From Candidatus Desantisbacteria bacterium CG1_02_49_89 (lineage in GTDB: Bacteria; Desantisbacteria; UBA1551): a DNA stretch of 12,477 nt. The stretch spans positions 1 to 12,477 of the forward strand of contig MNUP01000017.1 in the NCBI GenBank assembly GCA_001871075.1, in the 5' to 3' direction. The notes beneath the pieces are model-generated. The model was not told the origin of the DNA and made no database searches. It saw only the letters and a list, made by a program, of their open reading frames with translations. Below are positions 3,524-12,477 of the stretch, one piece after another (the stretch's first letter is position 1; each line of letters opens with the position of its first letter). The position numbers and the translations under genes are program-made.

Positions 3524-3545
3524 CTGTAGTCATTAGTTTAAAAGC

Positions 3546-3577
3546 GTGTCAACGTGTCAACGTATCAACGTGTCAGA
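3546..3577 (+). repeat. Tandem array, 8 bp unit GTGTCAAC, four units
   Basis: Four imperfect copies of GTGTCAAC (third GTATCAAC, fourth GTGTCAGA) lie just after the ATPase stop. The same unit family recurs at 12093-12124. In both places the array runs directly into GCAAA-R-R-CAAGGAATTTTAT. Confidence 0.85.
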
Positions 3578-3585
3578 GCAAAAGC

Positions 3586-3620
3586 AAGGAATTTTATCGT
3601 AACTCAGGGCTTTAGCCCTG
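3586..3620 (+). repeat. Partial copy of the AAGGAATTTTAT hairpin element
   Basis: AAGGAATTTTAT (3586-3597) is followed by AACTCAGGGCTTTAGCCCTGAT. This equals the left end plus the last hairpin of the complete 100 bp element at 12133-12232. The middle hairpins and the right inverted repeat are missing. Confidence 0.65.
3605..3620 (+). terminator. Hairpin CAGGGC-TTTA-GCCCTG followed by ATATTTT
   Basis: A perfect 6 bp stem with a 4-base loop is followed by ATATTTT, about 80 bases after the ATPase stop codon. It could act as an intrinsic terminator. It is also a repeat module (same stem at 12199-12214), so termination is unproven. Confidence 0.4.
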
Positions 3621-3626
3621 ATATTT

Positions 3627-3646
3627 TAATCCGTGGATATCCGTGG
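3627..3646 (+). repeat. Two units of the 10 bp ATCCGTGG repeat
   Basis: Two copies of WATCCGTGG with 10 bp spacing lie 44 bases upstream of the radical SAM start codon. Related three-unit versions precede the genes at 4924, 5768 and 9900. Confidence 0.6.
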
Positions 3647-3676
3647 CTGACATTTTGTGTTTTCGCAGTGGATCGC

Positions 3677-3681
3677 AGGAG
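3677..3681 (+). promoter_or_regulatory. Ribosome-binding site that fixes the radical SAM start
   Basis: AGGAG lies 9 bases before the ATG at 3691. A longer in-frame GTG start at 3643 has no such site and would place a charged 16-residue extension in front of the signal peptide, so the ATG is preferred. Confidence 0.6.
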
Positions 3682-3690
3682 CCGAAAAAA

Positions 3691-4815
3691 ATGAAAAAAG
3701 CGATTTTGTTTTTTTTGTTGTTTGCCTTACACGTTACACCTTACACGTTACACGTTGTCCACGCCCAGGAAGCGGGCTTGCAGAAGCAGGAGCTGGGCAA
3801 GACCCACCCGCGCGAGGCGATGTATTACCGGAGGCTTGCCGAAGGCAGCGTCCAGTGCCAGCTGTGCCCGAGGAACTGCCCTATCCCTCCCGGAGGCACG
3901 GGATTCTGCAGGGTCAGGGAGAACGTAAAGGGGACGCTTTACACAAACGCGTTCTCAAATCCCACCGCGGTGCACATAGACCCGATTGAGAAAAAACCTT
4001 TCTTCCATTTCCTGCCCGCGACAGCCTCGTTTTCCATAGCGACAGCCGGCTGCAACCTGCGCTGCTTATTCTGCCAGAACTGGGAGATATCCCAGAAGAG
4101 CCCGAAGGAAACTTATAATTTCTTTCTCACGCCTGAAGCCGCGGCAGGCCTTGCGAAAAAAGCGGAGTGCGCGTCAGTTGCATACACTTACAGCGAGCCG
4201 ACGAATTTTTACGAGTACATGCTTGCGTGCGCGATAGAAGTTAAAAAATTGGGGCTGAAAAACGTCTATCACTCCTGTGGATACATAAACGAGAAACCGC
4301 TGAAAGAACTCGTAAAATATCTGGACGCGGCGAACATAGACCTTAAGGGCTTTTCCGAGGATTATTACAAAGAAATGTCCTCAGCGTCCCTCGCGCCCGT
4401 GCTCGAAACCCTGAAGGCGCTTAAGAAGAACGGGGTCTGGGTGGAGATCACAAACCTTGTCATTCCCACGAAGAACGATGATCCGGAAATGATCAAGGAG
4501 ATGTGCGCCTGGGTGGTGAAGAACCTGGGCCCGGACGTTCCCATACACTTCTCAAGGTTCTACCCGCAGTACCAGCTCAAGAACCTTCCGCCTACCCCGG
4601 TTGAAGCCCTTGAAAAAGCCGTGGAGATCGCGAGATCGCAGGGAGTGCTTTACTGCTATATCGGCAACGTGCCGGGGCATCCGGCTGAGGACTCGTACTG
4701 CCACAACTGCGGGAAGCTGCTCATAGACCGGTTCGGATACCAGATAAGCGCGAACAACATAGTGAACGGCAGGTGCAAGTACTGCAAAGCCCAGATCCCC
4801 GGGGTTTGGAAGTAG
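3691..4815 (+). CDS. amrS: AmmeMemoRadiSam-system radical SAM enzyme with signal peptide
   Basis: This is a 374-residue member of the radical SAM family that co-occurs with AMMECR1 and Memo proteins and resembles pyruvate-formate-lyase activases. An N-terminal cysteine set (Cys56, Cys59, Cys63 in CQLCPRNCPIPPGGTGFC) is typical. It is followed by the SAM/[4Fe-4S] motif CNLRCLFC (Cys121, 125, 128) and a C-terminal zinc-ribbon-like CHNC...CKYC (337, 340, 362, 365). The family usually begins near MYYRRLAEG (residue 40 here). The extra N-terminus starts MKKAILFFLLFALHV and ends VVHAQ, a Sec-type signal peptide without twin arginines. Export is unexpected for an oxygen-sensitive Fe-S enzyme that needs SAM. 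Part of that signal is encoded by a 7 bp tandem repeat (3727-3754). The AMMECR1 and Memo partners are not in the window. The reaction is unknown for this family. Confidence 0.9.
   Translation: MKKAILFFLLFALHVTPYTLHVVHAQEAGLQKQELGKTHPREAMYYRRLAEGSVQCQLCPRNCPIPPGGTGFCRVRENVKGTLYTNAFSNPTAVHIDPIEKKPFFHFLPATASFSIATAGCNLRCLFCQNWEISQKSPKETYNFFLTPEAAAGLAKKAECASVAYTYSEPTNFYEYMLACAIEVKKLGLKNVYHSCGYINEKPLKELVKYLDAANIDLKGFSEDYYKEMSSASLAPVLETLKALKKNGVWVEITNLVIPTKNDDPEMIKEMCAWVVKNLGPDVPIHFSRFYPQYQLKNLPPTPVEALEKAVEIARSQGVLYCYIGNVPGHPAEDSYCHNCGKLLIDRFGYQISANNIVNGRCKYCKAQIPGVWK
3727..3754 (+). repeat. In-frame heptamer array TTACACG inside the signal peptide
   Basis: Four copies of TTACACG (second TTACACC) lie inside the coding sequence and encode the LHVTPYTLHV part of the signal peptide. 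Its form matches the intergenic heptamer arrays elsewhere in the window. A degenerate fifth unit, TTGTCCA, follows. Confidence 0.8.
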
Positions 4816-4830
4816 CATAAAAGCCAAATT

Positions 4831-4875
4831 CAGTTTACATAGTTTATACAGTTTACAAAGTTTACAGAGTTTTAA
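4831..4875 (+). repeat. Tandem array, 9 bp unit CAGTTTACA, about five units
   Basis: Five imperfect 9 bp units (consensus NAGTTTACA) fill the space after the radical SAM stop codon. They merge directly into the 10 bp array that follows. Confidence 0.8.
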
Positions 4876-4910
4876 TCCGTGCTAATCCGTGAGAATCCGT
4901 GGTTAAAAGG
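4873..4910 (+). repeat. Three 10 bp AATCCGTG units plus TTAAAAGG before a start codon
   Basis: Three units with consensus NAATCCGTGN at exact 10 bp spacing end in GTTAAAAGG, 13 bases before the ATG at 4924. The AAGG is the only ribosome-binding-like sequence for that gene. The same arrangement is seen at 5728-5766. Confidence 0.75.
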
Positions 4911-4923
4911 TAGTTATGCATCA

Positions 4924-5571
4924 ATGAAAAGCGAACTCGGAAAATTATTCCTGACAGGTCTAACAATGGGGTGGGGGCCGTGCATGGGCGTGTGCCTGCC
5001 GGTTATCCTGCCTTATATCGCGGGCGCTGAAAAGGGATGGAAAAAAGGTTTTCTGGCAAGCCTCGCGTTCTCAGTTTCCAGGTTTACCGCCTACGTTATC
5101 CTGGGATTTCTCGCGGGTTTTGCCGCGAAAATGCTTTTAAGGGGATTTTACCAGCATAACATAGGTCTTTATATCAATAAGGTCGGCGCGGCAATAATTA
5201 TCCTGTTCGGCGTATTGATAATCCTTGGAAAAAATTTCCAATCACCGTTCTGCAGGATCTTACGGGAGCATACGATCGAAAAGGGGATGAGGGGCACGAT
5301 AATCCTGGGATTTCTCACAGGCCTTTCTCCCTGCGCCCCGCTTATGGGCGCGCTCGCGATGATAATACTTGAGGCGAAAAACGGCTTGCAGGGTATGGCT
5401 TTTGGCGCGGCTTTCGGGCTTGGAACAATGCTTTCTCCGGTCTTGCTGTTCGGGACACTCGCTGGCGGCGCGTCTTCTTACCTGCTGAAATTTAAAAGGG
5501 CGTCGGATATAGCGGGGCGGGCATGCGGAGCGCTCCTGGCGCTGTGGGGCGTTTTGATCCTTCTGCGATAG
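4924..5571 (+). CDS. DsbD/CcdA-like cytochrome c biogenesis transmembrane protein
   Basis: This is a 215-residue integral membrane protein with about six hydrophobic segments, of the CcdA/DsbD transmembrane-domain class that passes electrons from cytoplasmic thioredoxin to envelope thiols. The diagnostic feature is a duplicated half with a Pro-Cys in the first and fourth helices: GPCMGVC (Cys20, Cys24) and LSPCAPL (Cys137). Cys110 lies in a loop. Each half also has a hydrophobic run that starts with a GFL or GLT turn. The ATG at 4924 is chosen over the in-frame GTG at 4879, which would translate the upstream repeat. The gene lies 108 bases after the radical SAM gene and precedes the spermidine-synthase-like gene on the same strand. 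A TauE/SafE-type exporter label is possible, but the paired Pro-Cys favours thiol chemistry. Its partners are unknown. Confidence 0.82.
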   Translation: MKSELGKLFLTGLTMGWGPCMGVCLPVILPYIAGAEKGWKKGFLASLAFSVSRFTAYVILGFLAGFAAKMLLRGFYQHNIGLYINKVGAAIIILFGVLIILGKNFQSPFCRILREHTIEKGMRGTIILGFLTGLSPCAPLMGALAMIILEAKNGLQGMAFGAAFGLGTMLSPVLLFGTLAGGASSYLLKFKRASDIAGRACGALLALWGVLILLR

Positions 5572-5595
5572 TAGTCATGGGCCATGTGTAAAATC

Positions 5596-5623
5596 AATTA
5601 TGAATTATGAGTTATGAATTATG
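5596..5623 (+). repeat. Heptamer array AATTATG, four units
   Basis: Four units of AATTATG (third AGTTATG) lie 25 bases after the preceding stop codon. The array leads into GAGTCAAAAGCAAGG, the same junction as the arrays at 3546 and 12093. Confidence 0.8.
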
Positions 5624-5633
5624 AGTCAAAAGC

Positions 5634-5665
5634 AAGGTTTCTATTTTAAATAACAAAAATCCTTC
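5634..5665 (+). repeat. Short degenerate relative of the AAGG...CCTT element
   Basis: AAGGTTTCTATTTT and AAAAATCCTT form imperfect inverted ends about 32 bp apart, followed by CAT as in the 12133 element. An AT-rich run of TTTTTAA units (5666-5696) follows. No gene is seen here. Confidence 0.4.
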
Positions 5666-5701
5666 ATTTTTAATTTTACATTTTTAATTTTTAATTGAGT
5701 T

Positions 5702-5766
5702 CTCCGTGCCTCCGTGATTAATTAGTTGTAATTCGTGGGAATCCGTGGAAATTCGTGGTTAAAAGG
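5702..5766 (+). repeat. CTCCGTGC pair, then three 10 bp ATTCGTGG units and GTTAAAAGG
   Basis: Two 8 bp units (5702-5717) are followed by three 10 bp units with consensus NAATYCGTGN (5728-5757) and GTTAAAAGG. The array ends one base before the next start codon, and its AAGG would have to act as a very closely spaced ribosome-binding site. Confidence 0.7.
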
Positions 5767-5767
5767 T

Positions 5768-8104
5768 ATGTTACCGATAATCTTTTTCGTCCTGGGAGCG
5801 GTTTCAGCGCTGGTGCAGTCCGTTACCATCAGGGAATTCCTTAACGTCTTTTACGGTAACGAACTTGTGCTGGGCGCTGTGCTGGGCATCTGGCTCTTGT
5901 GGGTGGCTGCCGGATCTTTTACTGGAGCGTACCTGGTGAAAAAGATCAAAGGGCTGTACAGGTTCTTCATAACCCTGGTGACAGTGGGCGCGTTCTTCCC
6001 GCTTGTCCAGCTTTTTCTTATCAGGACAGCCAGGTCAGTGCTCGGCGTCCCGTCGGGCCAGTATATCCCGTTCTTCACAACCGTCCTGTATTCCGCCGCG
6101 GTAATGTTCCCTTTCTGTTTCCTGGCAGGCATAGCTTTTCCGCTTGGCGCCAGGATATACTGCGCGAAGGAAGAATATGAGAACACGGCTGAGGAGATCT
6201 CGAAGCTTTACGTGTCCGAATCCCTGGGTTTCCTTGCCGGCGGCGCCGGTTTTACTTTTTATTTCGCCCTTCATTACCAGGCGTACCTCCTGCTTTCAGC
6301 TGCATTCGCCTGTGTCCTGGCTTCAGTCTGGTTCCTGGCAATGAAAAGGATAAAATTCGCCTCAAAGCCGGCAGGCGTGGTATTCGCGCTCGCGTGCCTG
6401 GGCCTGTCAATTTATTCCCTGGTCGCGTCCGGCGCCCTTGAAAAAGAAACCGTGCGCAGGCGCTGGGAATCGCTTAACAGGAGGATAGAGCTTGTCGAGA
6501 CGGCTGACACGAAATACCAGAACATAGCCGTGGGGAAATTCCTCGGGCAGTACAGCATGTTCGGCAACGGCAACCTGCTTTTTTCCTTCCCGGATGAATA
6601 CGAGGACGCGCCGCTCGCGAACTACGTTCTTTTCCAGCACCCGAACCCCAGAAGCGTGCTTGTCATCGGCGAGGTGCCTGCGGGGGTCCTGGGGTTCATG
6701 CTGCTTCACCCGGATATTTCGGTTGACTGCGTTTTTCTGGACAGCAAACTAATGCAGGCGATGGGCCGCTACGCGGGCGAGGTCCCTGGCATAAAGGACA
6801 ATAACAGATTGAAATATATCCACGAGGACGGCAGGCATTACGTGAAAGGCTGTTCCCGCAAATATGACGTGGTTTTTCTGGCTCTTCCGCAACCCTCTAC
6901 GGCCATGGTTAACAGGTATTACACGCGGGAATTTTTCAGGGAAGCCGCGGGGATACTCGAGAAGGGCGGGGTATTCGCCTGCTTCGGCGCCAGCACAGCG
7001 GACGCGATAACCTGGCAGGTCGGCAACTATTTCAGCTCCGCGTACAGGACGCTTTCAAGCGTGTTCGCGGACGTTAAGGTGAGCACGGGATACTCGAATT
7101 ACTTTTTCTGCGCGCAGGAAACCGGGGTCGTGACCGATGATTATAAGGTCCTGCAGGAAAGATACTGGTCAAAAAACGTAAGGATGCCGTTCTTTTCAGA
7201 AGAGCATTTCCCGTATTTCTTCCCGCCGGACAGGGTGCGGTATATAAACGATTTCCTGAAAGAATGGCGCTGGTCCAGGGTAAACACGGACCTCAAGCCT
7301 GTTTCGTATTTCTATTCCCTGCTTGAGTGGGACGCGTATTCGGGTTCACGCATGGGCCCTTTATTGAGAAGGCTCGGGGAATGGTTCAGGGTCGGATGGG
7401 CGGTTATGCTCCTGGGCCTTTTCCTTGCCATGCGGTATTTTACCATCCTGGTACGCAGGAGAACGCCGGCGCAGCAGCAGAGGTTCAGCGCCCTTTTCGC
7501 TATATTCGCCTGCGGCTTCGCCGCGATGGGACTGGAGATCATGCTTATATTTTTGTTCCAGAACCTTTACGGATACCTTTACCAGATGATAGGTTTCATC
7601 ACCGCGGTGTTCATGTGCGGGCTTGCCGCGGGAGGGTGGGTCGCGCTCAGATCCCTGAAGAAAAACGGGGAAGCGAACCGGCGCAGGCTTGTTTTCGCGT
7701 GCTGCGGCATGGCTCTTTTCCCCCTGCTGATCCCGTTTCTGTCATGGATTTTCGCGTCAGCCGCTTTTTCAAAAATGCCCCAGGGTTTGTCACAGTTCTT
7801 TTTCATGGTCCCGGTCTTCCTTATCGGGTTCATCGCGGGCTTTGAATTCCCGCACGCGTCGTCGGTTTACGGCTCCACGGCGATCGGCAGCGGGAAAACA
7901 GCTGGGATGGTCGGCTGGGCGGATAATTTCGGAGGGTTCCTTGGCGCGGCGCTTTGCGGCACGTTATTGATCCCGGTGCTGGGCATCACCGGCGCCTGCC
8001 TGGTTATTTCTCTGTGCAGTATTGCCGCGGTCATCCTGCTTGTTTTCCAGGTTAAAACGAAAAAGATCGAAGTTATGGTTGTAAATAAAGATCCTGGATC
8101 CTAG
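5768..8104 (+). CDS. Polytopic membrane protein with central spermidine-synthase-like domain
   Basis: This is a 778-residue fusion: about seven membrane helices (1-230), a soluble Rossmann-like aminopropyltransferase domain (about 245-500), and about six further helices (545-770). The N-terminal REFLNVFYGNELVLG signature and the central PQPSTAMVNRYYTREFF (374-390) are typical of the fused MFS/spermidine-synthase group. The SAM-binding glycine loop is degenerate: IGEVPAG at 300-306 in place of a GGGDG-type loop. The usual catalytic aspartate after the fourth strand is replaced in VVFLALPQP. It is therefore unlikely to make spermidine, and its substrate is unknown. The ATG at 5768 is preferred to the in-frame GTG at 5735 because the latter reads through the 10 bp repeat. 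The C-terminal KDPGS and stop codon are encoded by a heptamer array. It follows the DsbD-like gene and may belong to the same transcript. Confidence 0.85.
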   Translation: MLPIIFFVLGAVSALVQSVTIREFLNVFYGNELVLGAVLGIWLLWVAAGSFTGAYLVKKIKGLYRFFITLVTVGAFFPLVQLFLIRTARSVLGVPSGQYIPFFTTVLYSAAVMFPFCFLAGIAFPLGARIYCAKEEYENTAEEISKLYVSESLGFLAGGAGFTFYFALHYQAYLLLSAAFACVLASVWFLAMKRIKFASKPAGVVFALACLGLSIYSLVASGALEKETVRRRWESLNRRIELVETADTKYQNIAVGKFLGQYSMFGNGNLLFSFPDEYEDAPLANYVLFQHPNPRSVLVIGEVPAGVLGFMLLHPDISVDCVFLDSKLMQAMGRYAGEVPGIKDNNRLKYIHEDGRHYVKGCSRKYDVVFLALPQPSTAMVNRYYTREFFREAAGILEKGGVFACFGASTADAITWQVGNYFSSAYRTLSSVFADVKVSTGYSNYFFCAQETGVVTDDYKVLQERYWSKNVRMPFFSEEHFPYFFPPDRVRYINDFLKEWRWSRVNTDLKPVSYFYSLLEWDAYSGSRMGPLLRRLGEWFRVGWAVMLLGLFLAMRYFTILVRRRTPAQQQRFSALFAIFACGFAAMGLEIMLIFLFQNLYGYLYQMIGFITAVFMCGLAAGGWVALRSLKKNGEANRRRLVFACCGMALFPLLIPFLSWIFASAAFSKMPQGLSQFFFMVPVFLIGFIAGFEFPHASSVYGSTAIGSGKTAGMVGWADNFGGFLGAALCGTLLIPVLGITGACLVISLCSIAAVILLVFQVKTKKIEVMVVNKDPGS

Positions 8105-8166
8105 ATGTTAGATCCTAGATCAAAGATTTTTAAAGATAGATCCTGGATGCTGGATATTAGATCCTA
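8090..8166 (+). repeat. Heptamer array GATCCTG, interrupted
   Basis: Units of GATCCTG or GATCCTA run from inside the last codons of the preceding gene to the left end of the A2 element, broken by a GATTTTTAAAGATA stretch. The reverse-oriented counterpart lies on the other side of A2 at 8384-8417. Confidence 0.8.
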
Positions 8167-8355
8167 CTGATATTCGCTTAATTGGTTGACGGTTTTTGAT
8201 GTCATTGCGAAGGCGAAGCCTGTGGCAATCCCGTCGTTAAAAACGAGATTGTTTCGCTTGCCCGCCACGCTTGCCCGCCACGCTTTGCTCGTGGTTTCAG
8301 CTCGCGGCTTCGGCTCGCAAAGACAACTGTCAAGGTATTATGCGATTATCAGTAG
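8164..8355 (-). repeat. Type A hairpin element with terminal inverted repeats, copy A2
   Basis: This element matches A1 in the reverse orientation. It starts CTACTGATATTCGCTTAATT and ends TATCAGTAG; the two ends match at about 22 of 27 positions as inverted repeats. It shares TTGAC, TGTCATTGCG, the GATTGCC and AACGAGATTG hairpin core, and GCAAAGACAACTGTC with A1. It is 41 bp longer because the loop near 8255-8310 contains duplicated TTGCCCGCCACGC units and a GCTCGCGGCTTCGGCTCGC stretch where A1 has the GCCCCGAT hairpin. It contains no gene. Confidence 0.75.
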
Positions 8356-8383
8356 ATTAAGGACTTATTTAAATAAACTCCCT

Positions 8384-8417
8384 CATCCAGGATCAAGGAT
8401 CCAGGATCCAGCATCTG
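8384..8417 (+). repeat. Heptamer array GATCCAG, inverse of the array left of A2
   Basis: Five units of roughly GATCCAG (first CATCCAG, last CATCTG) are the reverse complement of the GATCCTG array at 8090-8166. The two arrays could pair and enclose A2 in a larger stem. Confidence 0.75.
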
Positions 8418-8430
8418 TATTTAAAAACGA

Positions 8431-8459
8431 TTGACTTTTGTCTTTAAATATGATATAAT
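8431..8459 (+). promoter_or_regulatory. Sigma-70-type promoter with extended -10, upstream of bioY
   Basis: TTGACT (8431-8436) and TATAAT (8454-8459) are separated by 17 bases, and TGA directly precedes the -10, giving an extended -10. Transcription would begin near 8466 and leave a leader of about 115 bases before bioY. No biotin-operator palindrome or known riboswitch is recognisable in the leader. Confidence 0.75.
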
Positions 8460-8536
8460 ATAGCATCAAACTTAATAGAGTATGTTATGTGGTATTTTAG
8501 TTGTTTCAGTTTTTACGATGCACGAAGAACAGCTTG

Positions 8537-8558
8537 CCCGCCAATCTTGCTGGGCGGG
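8537..8558 (+). other. Hairpin in the bioY leader
   Basis: CCCGCC and GGCGGG pair around a 10-base loop. There is no U-run, so it is not a standard terminator. Similar TTGCCCGCC pieces occur inside A2, so it may be a repeat fragment. The bioY ribosome-binding site GGAGG (8573-8577) lies 14 bases beyond it. Confidence 0.4.
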
Positions 8559-8581
8559 ACGCACGACTTAATGGAGGCCAC

Positions 8582-9193
8582 ATGACCGAGAGAATAATGG
8601 ATCTGCGCTATGAAGCTTTCGCGTGGAGAGAAAGCAGGGGGATCGCCGGAAAACTTATGCTGAGCGTTTGTTTCGCCGGGATAACCGGCCTTCTCGCGGG
8701 AATACGTATCCCGCTTCCTTTCACGCCTGTGCCGATAACAGGCCAGGTGCTGGGTGTATTTCTGGGAAGTATATTCCTGGGAAGGAAATACGGCGGTATC
8801 AGCCAGATATTTTACGTTTTCCTTGGGCTGTGCGGCATACCGTGGTTTGCCGGGTGGAAAGCGGTATCGTTCTACCAGTTCCTGTCAAGCCCCACCGCGG
8901 GCTATCTTGTCGGGTTCGTGTTCGCGGGTTTTTATCTGGGGGATATAGCGGATAGGAAAGTAGGTAACCGTTTTTTCCCGCGGCAGATCCTGGCAATGCT
9001 GAGCGCCACGCTCATATACTATGCCTGCGGGACCGTGCACCTCGCGCTTTTAATGAAGCTGGATTTGCAACAGGCGCTCGCGATGGGTGTGCTGCCTTTT
9101 ATAGCGGTTGATCTTGTTAAGGCGGTCATCGCGGCATCGGTTTCATCAGCGCTCCTGCCTAAAAAATCATTCACCACCGAATCCGACCGCTGA
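8582..9193 (+). CDS. bioY: BioY, biotin-binding S component of an ECF transporter
   Basis: This 203-residue membrane protein has about six helices and binds biotin for uptake, working alone or with the shared EcfT/EcfA energising module, which is not in this window. The family signature RIPLPFTPVPITGQ lies at 42-55, followed by GGISQIFYVFLGLCGIP (71-87), SSPTAGYLVGF (102-112) and PFIAVDLVKA (172-181). The ATG at 8582 is chosen because GGAGG stands 4 bases upstream and the N-terminus then matches normal BioY length; the frame is open further upstream to 8501 but has no signal there. It is apparently monocistronic, with its own good promoter at 8431. The likely meaning is biotin salvage, consistent with a reduced-genome or auxotrophic lifestyle, though the absence of biotin synthesis genes cannot be judged here. 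Confidence 0.93.
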   Translation: MTERIMDLRYEAFAWRESRGIAGKLMLSVCFAGITGLLAGIRIPLPFTPVPITGQVLGVFLGSIFLGRKYGGISQIFYVFLGLCGIPWFAGWKAVSFYQFLSSPTAGYLVGFVFAGFYLGDIADRKVGNRFFPRQILAMLSATLIYYACGTVHLALLMKLDLQQALAMGVLPFIAVDLVKAVIAASVSSALLPKKSFTTESDR

Positions 9194-9207
9194 AATCCAA
9201 AAGATTT

Positions 9208-9305
9208 CCACGAAATCCGCGCCTACGCCAAGGCTTCGGCGGGCAGGCACGAAAGTATCACGAAAACACGAAAGAAATCACCACTGAGGCACTGAGGCAC
9301 GGAGA
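9208..9305 (+). repeat. Repeat-rich gap with CACGAAA and CACTGAGG units
   Basis: The 207-base gap after bioY holds spaced CACGAAA copies (9211, 9248, 9259, 9267), a GCCTACGCC...GGCGGGC hairpin near 9220-9243, and two exact CACTGAGG units plus CACGGAGA (9282-9305). No promoter with correct spacing was found: TTGACT at 9325 has no matching -10. Confidence 0.6.
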
Positions 9306-9387
9306 AGTACTTTTGGCTGAAAGCTTGACTCTTGATACTTAAAATAATCACTGTAATCATCAGTTAAAATCACCGTAATCATTTTTG

Positions 9388-9394
9388 AAAGGAG
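9388..9394 (+). promoter_or_regulatory. Strong ribosome-binding site AAAGGAG
   Basis: AAAGGAG lies 6 bases before the ATG at 9401 and is the best Shine-Dalgarno sequence in the window. It fixes the start of the NIL-ferredoxin gene. Confidence 0.75.
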
Positions 9395-9400
9395 TTAAAA

Positions 9401-9808
9401 ATGGTATCGAGAAGGATAGTGATGAAGTTTCCCCACAGGCTCCTGGACCAGCCTATCATAAGCAACCTGGTTAAGGATTACAACCTTGAATTCAACATCC
9501 TTAAGGCGTCCGTTATGCCCAACGAGGAAGGCCTGCTCGTCCTGGAGCTTACCGGGACGGAAAAAGATTATGAAAAGGCTTTGGAATATCTTAAAAAGAC
9601 CGGCGTGAATTTACAACCTTTGAGCCAGGACATCAAGCGCAACGATAAACGCTGCACGCACTGCGGGGCGTGCGTTACTATCTGCCCTGCGGGAGCTCTT
9701 GCGCTGGACCAGAAAACAAGGAAGGTCGATTTCCACGACGACAAGTGCATCGTGTGCGGGCTGTGCATCAACGCCTGCCCTGTCAGGGCGATGGAGATCC
9801 ACTTTTAA
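9401..9808 (+). CDS. NIL-domain protein fused to a 2[4Fe-4S] ferredoxin
   Basis: This is a 135-residue cytoplasmic electron carrier. Residues 3-78 form a NIL domain (an ACT-like ligand-binding fold first seen beside methionine transporter ATPases). Residues 82-135 form a bacterial ferredoxin with two complete CxxCxxCxxxCP motifs: Cys85, 88, 91, 95 and Cys116, 119, 122, 126. In methanogens and some anaerobes, NIL-ferredoxins of this layout act with a DUF39 protein in making homocysteine from aspartate semialdehyde by reductive sulfur insertion. No DUF39 gene is visible here. The downstream genes larE and cysteine desulfurase are also sulfur-handling, which supports a sulfur role. Length and start are normal. 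The array at 9812 begins three bases after its stop codon. Confidence 0.9.
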   Translation: MVSRRIVMKFPHRLLDQPIISNLVKDYNLEFNILKASVMPNEEGLLVLELTGTEKDYEKALEYLKKTGVNLQPLSQDIKRNDKRCTHCGACVTICPAGALALDQKTRKVDFHDDKCIVCGLCINACPVRAMEIHF

Positions 9809-9811
9809 ATA

Positions 9812-9845
9812 CAGTGTCCAGTATCCAGTGGCCAGTGTCCAGCAG
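9812..9845 (+). repeat. Heptamer array CAGTGTC, four to five units
   Basis: Four units, CAGTGTC, CAGTATC, CAGTGGC and CAGTGTC, plus a partial fifth begin three bases after the ferredoxin stop codon. The unit is close to the CAGTCCA array inside larE. Confidence 0.85.
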
Positions 9846-9850
9846 AGGAT

Positions 9851-9886
9851 TAATCTTGTGAAAATCTTGTGAAATCGCGTGGTTAA
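9851..9886 (+). repeat. Three AATCNNGTG units plus GTTAA before larE
   Basis: TAATCTTGTG, AAAATCTTGTG and AAATCGCGTG are followed by GTTAATTTT. This is a degenerate version of the AATCCGTG triplets before the genes at 4924 and 5768, again immediately upstream of a start codon. Confidence 0.55.
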
Positions 9887-9899
9887 TTTTAAATTGAAA

Positions 9900-10697
9900 A
9901 TGAAACTAAGCCAAAAATATAAAAAATTAATGGATATTCTGGCGGGGATGAAGAGCGTGCTGGTGGCGTATTCCGGCGGGGTGGACAGCACACTTCTGTT
10001 GAAAGCCGCGGGAGAAACGCTCGGAGGAAACGCCCTGGCAGTGATAGCATTCTCTTCCACGTATCCGGCTGATGAAATAAAGAAAGCCGCTGCCCTGGCA
10101 AAAAAGTCAGGCGTAAAACACGTCATAATAAACACGAGCGAGCTGAAAAACCCGGACTTCAGGAAAAATCCCGTGAACAGATGTTACTTTTGCAAGAAAG
10201 AACTTTTTTCAAGGCTTAGCGGGATAGCGAAAAAGAACAAACTGAAATTTGTGGCTGACGGCTCAAATTCCGACGACCTGAAGGATTTCCGCCCCGGAAA
10301 CAGGGCGAAGAAAGAGCTGGGAGTAAGAAGCCCGCTGCAGGAAGCAGGCCTTACCAAGAAAGACATACGCGCGCTTTCAAAGAAATTAAAACTGCCTACC
10401 TGGGACAAGCCTTCTCTTGCCTGCCTTGCCTCAAGATTCCCTTATGGCACATCCCTGACAGAACCCGGACTTGAAAGAGTGAATAAAGCGGAGAATTTCC
10501 TGCGCAAGCTGGGATTCACCCAGGTGCGGGTAAGGCATTACGGGGATACAGCGAGGATTGAGGTAGAACCTGACAAGATACAGTCCACGGTCCACAGTCG
10601 ACAGTCCATAGTTAAAAGACTAAAGCGGATGGGGTATAAATACGTGACAGTGGACCTGGAAGGTTACAGGACAGGCAGCATGAACGAGATCTTTTAA
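9900..10697 (+). CDS. larE: LarE-type ATP-dependent sulfur transferase
   Basis: This is a 265-residue PP-loop enzyme. The family adenylates a carboxylate and inserts sulfur, as in synthesis of the nickel-pincer cofactor of lactate racemase. The ATP pyrophosphatase loop SGGVDST lies at 25-31. The conserved NRCYFCKKELF gives Cys95 and Cys98, and KPSLACLASRFPYG gives Cys175, the position of the sacrificial cysteine in characterised LarE. Three cysteines might instead hold a [4Fe-4S] cluster, as reported for some anaerobe LarE proteins. The C-terminal DLEGYRTGSMNE is typical. No LarB or LarC is present, so the client may differ. Start choice is uncertain: ATG at 9900 gives a natural N-terminus but has no Shine-Dalgarno, and an upstream GTG at 9879 lies within repeat sequence. 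Codons for residues 228-237 come from a heptamer array. Confidence 0.92.
   Translation: MKLSQKYKKLMDILAGMKSVLVAYSGGVDSTLLLKAAGETLGGNALAVIAFSSTYPADEIKKAAALAKKSGVKHVIINTSELKNPDFRKNPVNRCYFCKKELFSRLSGIAKKNKLKFVADGSNSDDLKDFRPGNRAKKELGVRSPLQEAGLTKKDIRALSKKLKLPTWDKPSLACLASRFPYGTSLTEPGLERVNKAENFLRKLGFTQVRVRHYGDTARIEVEPDKIQSTVHSRQSIVKRLKRMGYKYVTVDLEGYRTGSMNEIF
10581..10608 (+). repeat. In-frame heptamer array CAGTCCA inside larE
   Basis: Four units of CAGTCCA (second CGGTCCA, third CAGTCGA) lie inside larE and encode about residues 228-236 (QSTVHSRQS). They sit in the variable region just before the conserved KRLKRMGYKYVTVDLEGY. The reading frame is maintained. Confidence 0.8.
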
Positions 10698-10698
10698 C

Positions 10699-10770
10699 TC
10701 GTAACATCGTGTTTCGTAACATCGTTGTTCGCCAAAATTTTGACGATGTTACTATGTTACGATGTTACGA
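10699..10770 (+). repeat. Large inverted repeat of TCGTAACATCG units after larE
   Basis: TCGTAACATCG units on the left (10699-10727) face ACGATGTTAC units with 8 bp period on the right (10743-10770), with a central AAAATTTT. The region could form a stem of over 20 imperfect pairs and might terminate larE transcription, although no clean U-run follows. Confidence 0.6.
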
Positions 10771-10775
10771 AATAG

Positions 10776-10814
10776 ACTGGCCAAACTGGCCAAACTGGCA
10801 AAACAGGCCAAACT
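10776..10814 (+). repeat. Tandem array, 9 bp unit ACTGGCCAA, 4.3 units
   Basis: Units ACTGGCCAA, ACTGGCCAA, ACTGGCAAA, ACAGGCCAA and a partial ACT end three bases before the start codon at 10818. The only purine-rich, ribosome-binding-like sequence for the next gene (CAGG) lies within the last unit. Confidence 0.85.
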
Positions 10815-10817
10815 AAT

Positions 10818-11993
10818 ATGAAACAAACTCGAAAAATATACCTGGATAACGCCGCGACAACTCCCGTGCACGCGGAAGTAGTAAAGGTGATGCAGGCCTG
10901 CCTTGCGGATATTTTCGGCAATCCTTCAAGCATTCATTCTTTCGGAAGGGAAGCCAAAGAAGTGATGGAAAAGGCAAGGGACAGCGTTGCGAGCCTTCTC
11001 GGAAGCAGGAACGAGGAGATCGTTTTCACCAGCGGCGGCACAGAATCCGATAACTCCGCGATCAAAGGTGTTGCTTTCGCGAACAAGGACAAAGGGAACC
11101 ATATAATAACGTCCACGGTGGAGCACCACGCTGTGATCGAGACGTGCAGGTTCCTGGAAACGCAGGGCTTTAAGATAACTTACCTTCCTGTGGACGGCAG
11201 CGGGCTTGTGGACCCGGGCAGCGTGAAGAAAGCCGTCACTGACAAGACCGTGCTCATTTCCATAATGCACGCGAACAACGAGATAGGGACGATCGAGCCG
11301 GTTGAAGAGATCGGCAGGATAGCCCGCGAAAAAGGCATATATTTCCATACGGATGCCGTGCAGACAGCGGGGCACATCCCAATAAATTTGAAAGAACTTC
11401 CGGTTGACCTTCTTTCGGTTTCAGCGCATAAGCTTTACGGCCCAAAGGGGATCGGCGCTCTTTATATCCGCAAAGGCGTGAAAATGGCAGCGTTCATTCA
11501 CGGCGGGGAGCAGGAGCGCAACAGACGCGCCGGCACTGAGAACATCCCCGGGATAGCAGGGTTCGGAAAAGCGGCTGAAATAGCAAAAAAGGAAATGCAG
11601 ACCGAAATGAAACGGCAGGCCGCGCTCAGGGATAAAATGATAAGCGGGATACTGAAAAAGATAGAGAAAACCCGGTTGAACGGCCATCCAACCAGGCGCC
11701 TGCCGAACAACGTGAGCATGAGCATTGAATACGTTGAGGGAGAATCCATACTGCTTAACCTGGACCTGGCAGGCATAGCCGCGTCATCCGGTTCAGCGTG
11801 CAGTTCAGGTTCCCTTGAGCCGTCCCACGTCCTTCTTGCAGCCGGGATCCCGCCTGAAGTCGCGCGCTGCTCGATAAGGTTCACGCTCGGAAGATATACT
11901 ACAGACGGCGAGATTGAGCAAGTGTTGCAAATCCTGCCCGGAATAATAATGAAACTGAGAAAGATGTCGCCGCTGTTTAAAGACAGTCATTAG
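10818..11993 (+). CDS. nifS: Cysteine desulfurase, NifS/IscS family (group I)
   Basis: This is a 391-residue PLP enzyme that converts cysteine to alanine and leaves a persulfide on a mobile cysteine for Fe-S cluster, thiolation or cofactor synthesis. It starts with YLDNAATTP. Conserved features follow in order: TSGGTESDN (71-79), the PLP-stacking histidine in TVEHHAVIE, NNEIGT, the cofactor DAVQTAGH, the PLP lysine Lys205 in SAHKLYGPKG, RAGTEN, and the active-site Cys328 in SGSACSSGSLEPSHVL. The cysteine loop is of the group I type. Length is normal and the gene looks intact. It lies 120 bases after larE, separated by repeats, so a shared operon is uncertain. It is a natural sulfur donor for LarE and for assembling the clusters of the NIL-ferredoxin. 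No IscU-type scaffold or MnmA follows within the window. Confidence 0.93.
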   Translation: MKQTRKIYLDNAATTPVHAEVVKVMQACLADIFGNPSSIHSFGREAKEVMEKARDSVASLLGSRNEEIVFTSGGTESDNSAIKGVAFANKDKGNHIITSTVEHHAVIETCRFLETQGFKITYLPVDGSGLVDPGSVKKAVTDKTVLISIMHANNEIGTIEPVEEIGRIAREKGIYFHTDAVQTAGHIPINLKELPVDLLSVSAHKLYGPKGIGALYIRKGVKMAAFIHGGEQERNRRAGTENIPGIAGFGKAAEIAKKEMQTEMKRQAALRDKMISGILKKIEKTRLNGHPTRRLPNNVSMSIEYVEGESILLNLDLAGIAASSGSACSSGSLEPSHVLLAAGIPPEVARCSIRFTLGRYTTDGEIEQVLQILPGIIMKLRKMSPLFKDSH

Positions 11994-12061
11994 CCTGCCC
12001 TGAACCCGAATGACATGTCCTTCGATGTCTGAAAGGCGTAGTAGGAAATGAGTGGTTCGGG

Positions 12062-12082
12062 GTCATGAGTCATGTGTCATTT
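12062..12082 (+). repeat. Heptamer array GTCATGA, three units
   Basis: GTCATGA, GTCATGT and GTCATTT stand in tandem, with a degenerate GTTCAAA next. The 68 bases between the desulfurase stop and this array show nothing recognisable. Confidence 0.7.
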
Positions 12083-12092
12083 GTTCAAAAAC

Positions 12093-12124
12093 GTGTCAAA
12101 GTATCAGAGTGTCAAAGTATCAGA
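12093..12124 (+). repeat. 8 bp array GTGTCAAA / GTATCAGA, four alternating units
   Basis: GTGTCAAA and GTATCAGA alternate twice. This is a relative of the GTGTCAAC array at 3546-3577 and is likewise joined to GCAAAG-CAAGGAATTTTAT. Confidence 0.85.
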
Positions 12125-12132
12125 GCAAAGAC

Positions 12133-12232
12133 AAGGAATTTTATTGCCCGCCCCTTTGGGGCGAGGTCTCGCCCCGATGGACATCGGGGCGGATAACTCA
12201 GGGCTTCAGCCCTGATTTGAATAAAATTCCTT
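12133..12232 (+). repeat. 100 bp hairpin element with perfect 12 bp terminal inverted repeats
   Basis: AAGGAATTTTAT (12133-12144) and ATAAAATTCCTT (12221-12232) are perfect inverted repeats. Between them are three hairpins in series: CGCCCC-TTT-GGGGCG, CGCCCCGAT-GGAC-ATCGGGGCG and CAGGGC-TTCA-GCCCTG. A partial copy lies at 3586-3620. The middle hairpin is shared with the A1 element, so modules move between families. It contains no ORF. Confidence 0.75.
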
Positions 12233-12235
12233 CAT

Positions 12236-12405
12236 CTAGTGTGATGTCACATAAATCCCTTGACATTTGATTCTGCTTTGAGTTGTCATTGCGAGCGACC
12301 AAAGGGAGCGTGGCAATCTCGATTTTTAGGTCGAGATTGCTTCGTCGTTAACACTCCTCGCAATGACAGCCCAAATGTAAAGAACTGTTAGAGACACCAC
12401 ACTAG
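12236..12405 (+). repeat. Type B hairpin element with CTAGTGTG terminal inverted repeats, copy B1
   Basis: This 170 bp element starts CTAGTGTGATGTC and ends with the inverse of CTAGTGTGGTGTC (12 of 13 positions match). Inside, ACATTTG and TGTCATTGCGAG occur near both ends in inverted orientation, and GGCAATCTCG faces CGAGATTGC around ATTTTTAGGT. The core resembles that of the type A elements, but the ends differ. No ORF is present. Confidence 0.75.
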
Positions 12406-12477
12406 TGTGGTGTCACATAAATCCCTTGACATTTGATTCTGCTTTGAGTTGTCATTGCGAGCGACCAAAGGGAGCGT
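12402..12477 (+). repeat. Type B element, copy B2, cut by the window end
   Basis: From CTAGTGTG at 12402 to the last base, the sequence repeats 12236-12311 almost exactly; the one clear difference is GGTGTCAC for GATGTCAC. B2 shares its first CTAG with the last CTAG of B1, so the two are direct, abutting copies. The junction is a perfect 22 bp palindrome (12393-12414). Confidence 0.8.

Follow-up and report, generated by a model that had tools for sequence, protein, structure and literature searches.

The 12,477-nt contig MNUP01000017.1 of Candidatus Desantisbacteria bacterium CG1_02_49_89 (assembly GCA_001871075.1; hereafter the window, at its full length) raises the question of why its intergenic gaps should be filled with short tandem arrays, and how so many different repeat units could come to share a single architecture. 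From position 3524 onward every gap of the window contains at least one array, with periods of 7-10 and about 3-5 copies as detected by Tandem Repeats Finder (TRF). A first-pass annotation, made from the letters alone, had noted that nearly every gap has its own array; all of the units that it named were recovered by TRF, and the shared architecture that it described across many different units is borne out. As set out below, most of these units belong to dispersed families with a strict internal grammar, some of them common to distant phyla, and our tentative reading is that they mark small non-autonomous insertion elements.

Abundance of the arrays

Arrays of period 6-12 were counted in a 233-kb sample that joined to the window 20 stretches from elsewhere in the genome, picked by contig number rather than by content, and in 20 shuffles of each gap taken separately with dinucleotides preserved. 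At a score of at least 40 there were 90 intergenic arrays against a shuffle mean of 0.6, and at a score of at least 45 there were 57 against 0.05, which rules out a chance origin. Open reading frames (ORFs) were called simply as longest frames, and "intergenic" is therefore approximate. Across 769 kb of the host's own genome, 305 intergenic arrays were found in about 107 kb of non-ORF DNA, mostly of 3-5 copies, with 156 of period 7, 50 of period 9, 44 of period 8 and 33 of period 10. The first-pass annotation had proposed that its arrays be set against shuffled gaps and against the rest of the genome, and by either comparison they are real and genome-wide. Their density, about 5.3 per 10 kb, compares with a median of 0.5 in loci from other genomes. 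In the sole same-order relative compared the density is 0.69 per 10 kb, close to that background; the arrays are not common to this relative, and order-wide inheritance is rejected on that basis.

Dispersed families and their grammar

When units were clustered with one mismatch allowed, 313 of 361 arrays fell into 43 clusters of at least two. Most units are dispersed families with a set period, a nearly set copy number and set degenerate positions, the main ones being F5, [CGTRTCAR]x4; F3, [AGTTTAYAN]x4; F4, [ARTTATG]x4; F1, [AATYYGTGNN]x3; and F2, [CACRGAGR]x3. That arrays of period 7, 8, 9 and 10 occur side by side follows from the presence of several families. The earlier impression that the unit differs from gap to gap is correct for neighbouring gaps but not genome-wide, where most units recur, AATTATG and CGTGTCAA among them (counts in Table 1). 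Spread of repeats, which the same annotation set aside, is also partly right, since each unit is itself a dispersed family and some of them are shared between phyla. The gaps are mosaics in which F3 adjoins F1, GTCATKW adjoins F5 and so forth, and 54% of gap bases match some other gap. A half-core, CAA-NNN-CAAGGAATTTTATT, can be read from the family alignments as common to F5 and F4.

Family alignments reveal that the same positions are variable in each unit, the remaining positions being mostly at least 92% constant. For F5 the variable positions are 4 (G/A), 8 (A/G) and 1 (C/A); 36 of 40 arrays are distinct, and there is no linkage among the variable columns (mutual information 0.027, null 0.027), while families other than F5 do have some. 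Spacing is equally strict: the pattern AATCCGTG-N{0,3}-AATCCGTG has 59 matches genome-wide, in which the linker is invariably 2 nt and made up of many different bases, and its reversed form has no match in the own genome. Copy number appears to be counted, since F1 arrays with at least three units have exactly three in 27 of 28 cases in the own-genome sample, F2 arrays mostly have three, and F5, F4 and F3 arrays mostly have four.

These regularities bear directly on the slippage that the first-pass annotation offered as one possible generating mechanism. Slippage predicts near-identical neighbours, yet agreement at variable positions within and between arrays was 0.55/0.52, 0.55/0.56, 0.36/0.43, 0.54/0.46 and 0.36/0.47 in five families. 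Units are thus hardly more alike within an array than between arrays, so slippage is not the main source of the copies; given also that copy number per family is nearly fixed rather than spread, slippage is rejected as their origin for the five families tested. The hallmarks of variable number tandem repeats, namely neighbouring units that are more alike and an open-ended copy number, were likewise not found. Where arrays are most similar, their flanks resemble one another little or no more than do those of pairs taken at random. That said, identical F1 and F5 arrays occur in excess, which indicates that some copying takes place.

Several families have a second level of organization. F4 arrays often stand opposite an inverted F4 array about 60 bp off, with all 19 of 19 pairs in +- order, and some arrays form hairpins. 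No facing inverted pairs of F1, F2 or GTCATKW were found in the own-genome sample, F2 having been looked for within 150 bp. Orientation relative to genes is mostly unbiased, with sense/antisense counts between codirectional genes of 24/25 for F4, 19/18 for F3, 12/14 for F5 and 21/13 for F1. A strand-specific RNA or translation element is rejected on account of this lack of bias in most families, together with the absence of any Rfam match in the window.

Arrays are also found within genes. The F5 word occurs in frame in HypF, a HycI-type protease, an activase and a radical SAM protein, the last two being NrdG-like and TIGR03960-like, respectively, by sequence resemblance. Insertion status is established for HypF alone of the four, an alignment with 3vth placing an 8-residue (24-nt) insert at the array position. 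The ACAGTCC array in larE is of another kind: the gene product aligns without gaps to solved LarE structures and shows no length change, and native sequence appears to have been overwritten.

Turnover between related species

A genus unrelated to the host (g95, represented by the genomes G094, G290 and G291) carries F1 and other arrays and retains synteny at about 77-95% nucleotide identity, allowing the same gaps to be compared between species. Four G094 stretches were picked for their F1 arrays and four more for synteny alone. The 47 pairs of G094 and G291 gaps comprise 16 without an array, 14 in which an array was detected in a single species, 10 in which both species have arrays but of different units (one borderline), and 7 with the same array. 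Between close relatives, then, a given gap may gain an array, lose one or come to hold another unit, the very outcomes for which the first-pass annotation had suggested looking.

The polarity of gain or loss is known solely where both congeners agree. At L329:5130 and L329:6273 the arrays are present in G094 alone and both congeners are short. A three-plus-three-unit hairpin at L328:15662 in G094 is absent from G291, and at L212:1600 there are five units in one species and two in the other. Word changes can be confined to part of an array: at L328:13311 the left arm is kept with one change, while ATCCGTG words in the right arm are replaced by ATCTGCG words, and at L211:955 the left part is exchanged, the boundary falling sharply at a CAGATT that is shared. 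The nearest other copy of the L328 hairpin in the G094 genome is 88% identical, and that of L329:13700 is 82% identical; a retained array, by comparison, is about 98% identical between species. Differences among retained arrays fall on 9.8% of fixed positions (53/542) and 16.6% of variable positions (26/157), and it seems that the word is imposed mainly at birth and only weakly kept afterwards.

One further difference, at about 1729-1845 of L212 (G094 contig C12), is a palindrome of about 116 bp, GGATGAATCCCGTTAGACC...GGTCTAACGGGATGAAGG, inserted at a site that is cleanly empty in G291. This looks like a separate element of the miniature inverted-repeat transposable element type.

Occurrence in other organisms

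Among 290 genomes the F1 pattern was found in 20, which belong almost all to different families, and the reversed pattern in none. A Methanoperedens archaeon contig (L129) carries F2 as a facing pair, and a contig from Nitrospirae (L168) has it singly. At least 120 stretches of the IMG/VR collection contain F2, compared with 17 that contain a permuted word, a number of which are long period-8 tracts; F1, F5 and F4 have 14, 11 and 84 matches there, respectively. The IMG/VR contigs may be host DNA, and these counts are thus evidence for wide occurrence rather than for phage carriage.

The F2 grammar is well preserved among the IMG/VR matches listed. Exactly three units are present in 175 of 184 arrays. 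A or G occupies position 4 in about 94% of cases, and the array usually follows TTCAC or a variant of it; 32 facing pairs, at spacings of 10-212, were seen against 2 in the opposite order. Agreement of the linker letter is 0.39 within arrays and 0.38 between contigs. At position 4 it is 0.71 within and 0.46 between, a within-array agreement that probably reflects a per-organism preference. One viral-collection stretch (L345) is an outlier, with long CACRGAGC runs of nine or more units, not three, at one end.

Origin of the arrays

The reading towards which we lean, tentatively and at somewhat less than an even chance, is that small non-autonomous insertion elements of many families are dispersed through the genome and that the arrays are the part of them that can be recognised. 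Such an element would consist of 3-5 tandem copies of one degenerate word at fixed spacing, doubled in several families into two facing inverted copies with a short loop or a palindromic core between them. Its invariant letters would be read in trans, at insertion or copying, by a DNA-binding protein or recombinase, and the R, Y and N letters would go unread and hence be free. Elements would enter gaps, presumably by transposition, and now and then genes in frame, and would later be lost. Arms or whole arrays might be replaced by a different word via recombination at shared letters, and some families may have spread between phyla by horizontal transfer. This reading is favoured because neither Y1 transposase nor the reverse transcriptase RVT_1 had a match in G094, G290 or G291 (drafts of 93, 75 and 83% completeness). 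In its favour, too, are the genome-wide families with degenerate positions that recur from unit to unit, the independence of units, the fixed copy number, the lack of orientation bias in most families, the arrays in genes for conserved enzymes, the arrays found in G094 but in neither congener, the arm-wise word swaps, the facing inverted pairs of F4 and F2, and the occurrence in several phyla. Several observations weigh against it. Arrays gained in G094 have nearest copies at 82-88% identity against about 98% for a retained array, so that they do not look like faithful copies of an element already present, and the change that still occurs at fixed positions means that constraint after insertion is weak. 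The larE array is a replacement without change of length, no enzyme has been identified and no target-site duplication demonstrated, and many specificities would be required to account for the dozens of words that a single genome holds.

The most conventional alternative is that the arrays are multi-site platforms for global regulators or chromosome-architecture proteins (IHF/HU-like), held under selection, as was proposed for Geobacter metallireducens (PMC2700814). Fixed word number and spacing with unread positions would be expected of such platforms, and retained arrays do change less at fixed than at variable positions. Against this, the two orientations are about equal, arrays are inserted into enzyme genes, and the same gap gains, loses or changes its word between sister species; fixed positions diverge nonetheless, so that selection after birth is weak at best, and on balance the proposal seems rather unlikely. 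Were the words recognition platforms, they would be widespread sites without an assigned reader. The most interesting alternative is that a short degenerate word is written 3-5 times by a polymerase, or by a system that processes DNA ends, while it fills or joins gap DNA, with the fixed letters templated or read and the others free, and with the strand perhaps copied back to give a facing inverted arm. Units that behave as independent draws, a counted copy number, gained arrays that are not near-copies of any other locus, and entire arms that change word at once are all consistent with writing of this sort, but dozens of words per genome and words shared by distant phyla would need a template store, the array-rich g95 drafts lack an RVT_1 match, and the excess of identical F1 and F5 arrays betrays some copying. 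We consider it unlikely, and it is similarly doubtful that an undescribed activity, neither Pfam RVT_1 nor Y1, writes counted degenerate words (3-5) into chromosomal gaps, in bacteria and archaea that are only distantly related, and is able to replace one arm of an existing array with another word. Should the words be written rather than copied, DNA synthesis or insertion of a new type would be at work.

Local growth, gap by gap, through slippage and quasi-palindrome template switching in unconstrained DNA would account for neighbouring gaps that differ in unit, for hairpins and for quick turnover. It is nevertheless quite improbable, given the independence of units, the fixed copy number and the recurrence of the same words genome-wide and in different phyla. 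The data contradict it for the five families tested, but it may still operate on singletons such as ACTGGCCAA. The template switching suggested by the first-pass annotation is compatible with the one-arm word swaps, as is conversion, while the slippage half of that suggestion is not supported. Spread driven by a Y1 transposase, as in repetitive extragenic palindromic (REP) sequences with their REP-associated tyrosine transposases (RAYTs), or by a reverse transcriptase is the least probable of all. In the own genome (G000) there are ten matches to Y1 and a single, partial one to RVT_1, and some arrays form hairpins, but no match to either was found in the draft genomes of G094, G290 and G291, which carry variable arrays, and this weighs against both as the driver. 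The genus g95, with arrays gained, lost and rewritten between species, offers a natural experiment for finding the responsible enzyme.

Relation to known repeats

The short tandemly repeated repetitive (STRR) sequences of cyanobacteria are degenerate tandem short words, heptanucleotides, dispersed in gaps. The present arrays resemble them as tandem heptanucleotides in intergenic DNA, period 7 accounting for 156 of the 305 host arrays, but the host is not cyanobacterial, periods of 7-10 coexist, copy number is set per family, and facing inverted pairs occur. REP sequences with RAYTs, bacterial interspersed mosaic elements (BIMEs) and the Rickettsia palindromic elements are likewise small, dispersed and intergenic, some with hairpins, and the Rickettsia elements also share in-frame insertion into genes. 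Here, by contrast, the core is a tandem array, several families lack a nearby inverted partner, and there is no Y1 match in the array-rich g95 drafts.

The closest published parallel to a single family is the class 2 sites of G. metallireducens, three tandem copies of TCTCCGTS[Y] (= RSACGGAGA) that occur as opposite-strand pairs at variable distance and are regulator sites by prediction (PMC2700814). These are the reverse complement of F2, and three copies are typical of both, in the own genome as well as among the matches listed elsewhere. For opposite-strand pairing the parallel may hold in the IMG/VR contigs, where facing F2 pairs occur; within 150 bp none were found in the own-genome sample. 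Further classes in that species comprise 4-5 tandem degenerate 7-8-mers in and between genes, and the authors noted the CCYTC class 4 repeat in many other genomes (PMC2700814). The unit AATCCCCCTC, present in four arrays of the own-genome sample, resembles this class 4 repeat. For Geobacter a few families are described, in one species, and taken as regulator sites, in contrast to the dozens of families in one genome, unit independence, cross-phylum occurrence and turnover in a related-species set described here.

The TAACTGA direct repeats, which occur in marine Beggiatoaceae, cyanobacteria and Bacteroidetes, are tandem heptamers with a patchy distribution among distant phyla, strain-specific positions and no evident transfer mechanism (PMC4679880). 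Most Beggiatoa sets are in forward orientation just upstream of start codons (PMC4679880), unlike the mostly unbiased host arrays. Tandem short words in prokaryotic gaps have thus been reported piecemeal over decades (cyanobacteria, Geobacter, Beggiatoa) without a mechanism, and among open-licence papers none was found that unites the Geobacter and TAACTGA repeats in a single class. The present data bring such words together as one class with a measurable grammar: a degenerate word, counted copies and, in several families, inverted pairing.

Arrays and other repeats in the window

Table 1. Tandem arrays of the window, with the number of arrays of the same unit elsewhere in the genome sample
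Feature	Position	Strand	Basis	Elsewhere	Remarks
F5 array, [CGTRTCAR] x4	3545..3575	+	TRF unit CGTGTCAA; family alignment	29	then half-core CAAAAGCAAGGAATTTTAT; 79 bp match other parts of own genome at 95% identity
TTACACG x4.3 array	3727..3756	+	TRF	13	within 5' end of radical SAM protein gene
F3 array, [AGTTTAYAN] x4	4832..4872	+	TRF unit AGTTTACAA	34	
F1 array, [AATYYGTGNN] x3	4873..4901	+	TRF unit AATCCGTG		
F4 array, [ARTTATG] x4	5596..5624	+	TRF unit AATTATG	48	
Second F1 array, AATTCGTGGGAATCCGTGGAAATTCGTGG	5730..5758	+	TRF; family alignment		
AGATCCT x4.7 array	8089..8121	+	TRF	4	
ATCCAGG x4.4 array	8385..8415	+	TRF	7	
F2 array, [CACNGAGR] x3	9282..9304	+	TRF unit CACTGAGG; own-genome and worldwide families		
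CAGTGTC x4.4 array	9812..9842	+	TRF	13	
AATCTTGTGAA x2 array	9852..9874	+	TRF		F1-like, to judge from the ending CGTGGTTAA just downstream
ACAGTCC x4.7 array	10580..10612	+	TRF; comparison with LarE structures		inside larE, in frame
ACGATGTT x3.5 array	10743..10770	+	TRF		facing TCGTAACATCG at 10699-10731
ACTGGCCAA x4.3 array	10776..10814	+	TRF	none	
GTCATKW x3 array	12062..12080	+	TRF unit GTCATGA, weak, score 31; family alignment		
Second F5 array, CGTGTCAAAGTATCAGAGTGTCAAAGTATCAGAG	12093..12125	+	TRF unit GTGTCAAAGTATCAGA; family alignment		with half-core

Other repeats lie among the arrays. At 12127-12236 an F5-element core, AAGGAATTTTATT...AATAAAATTCCTT, appears to be split by an inserted GC-rich palindrome plus a ACTCAGGGCTTCAGCCCTGA hairpin, as would result from a nested insertion. 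A long palindromic dispersed repeat of the TGTCATTGCGAG...CAATGACA type has copies at 452-541, 8197-8330 and 12285-12370 and in several gaps of the genome, and forms a class apart from the arrays. Near the contig end there is also a direct repeat of about 76 bp, tagtgtgatgtcacataaatcccttgacatttg..., at 12221-12296 and 12394-12469, with a spacing of about 173 bp.

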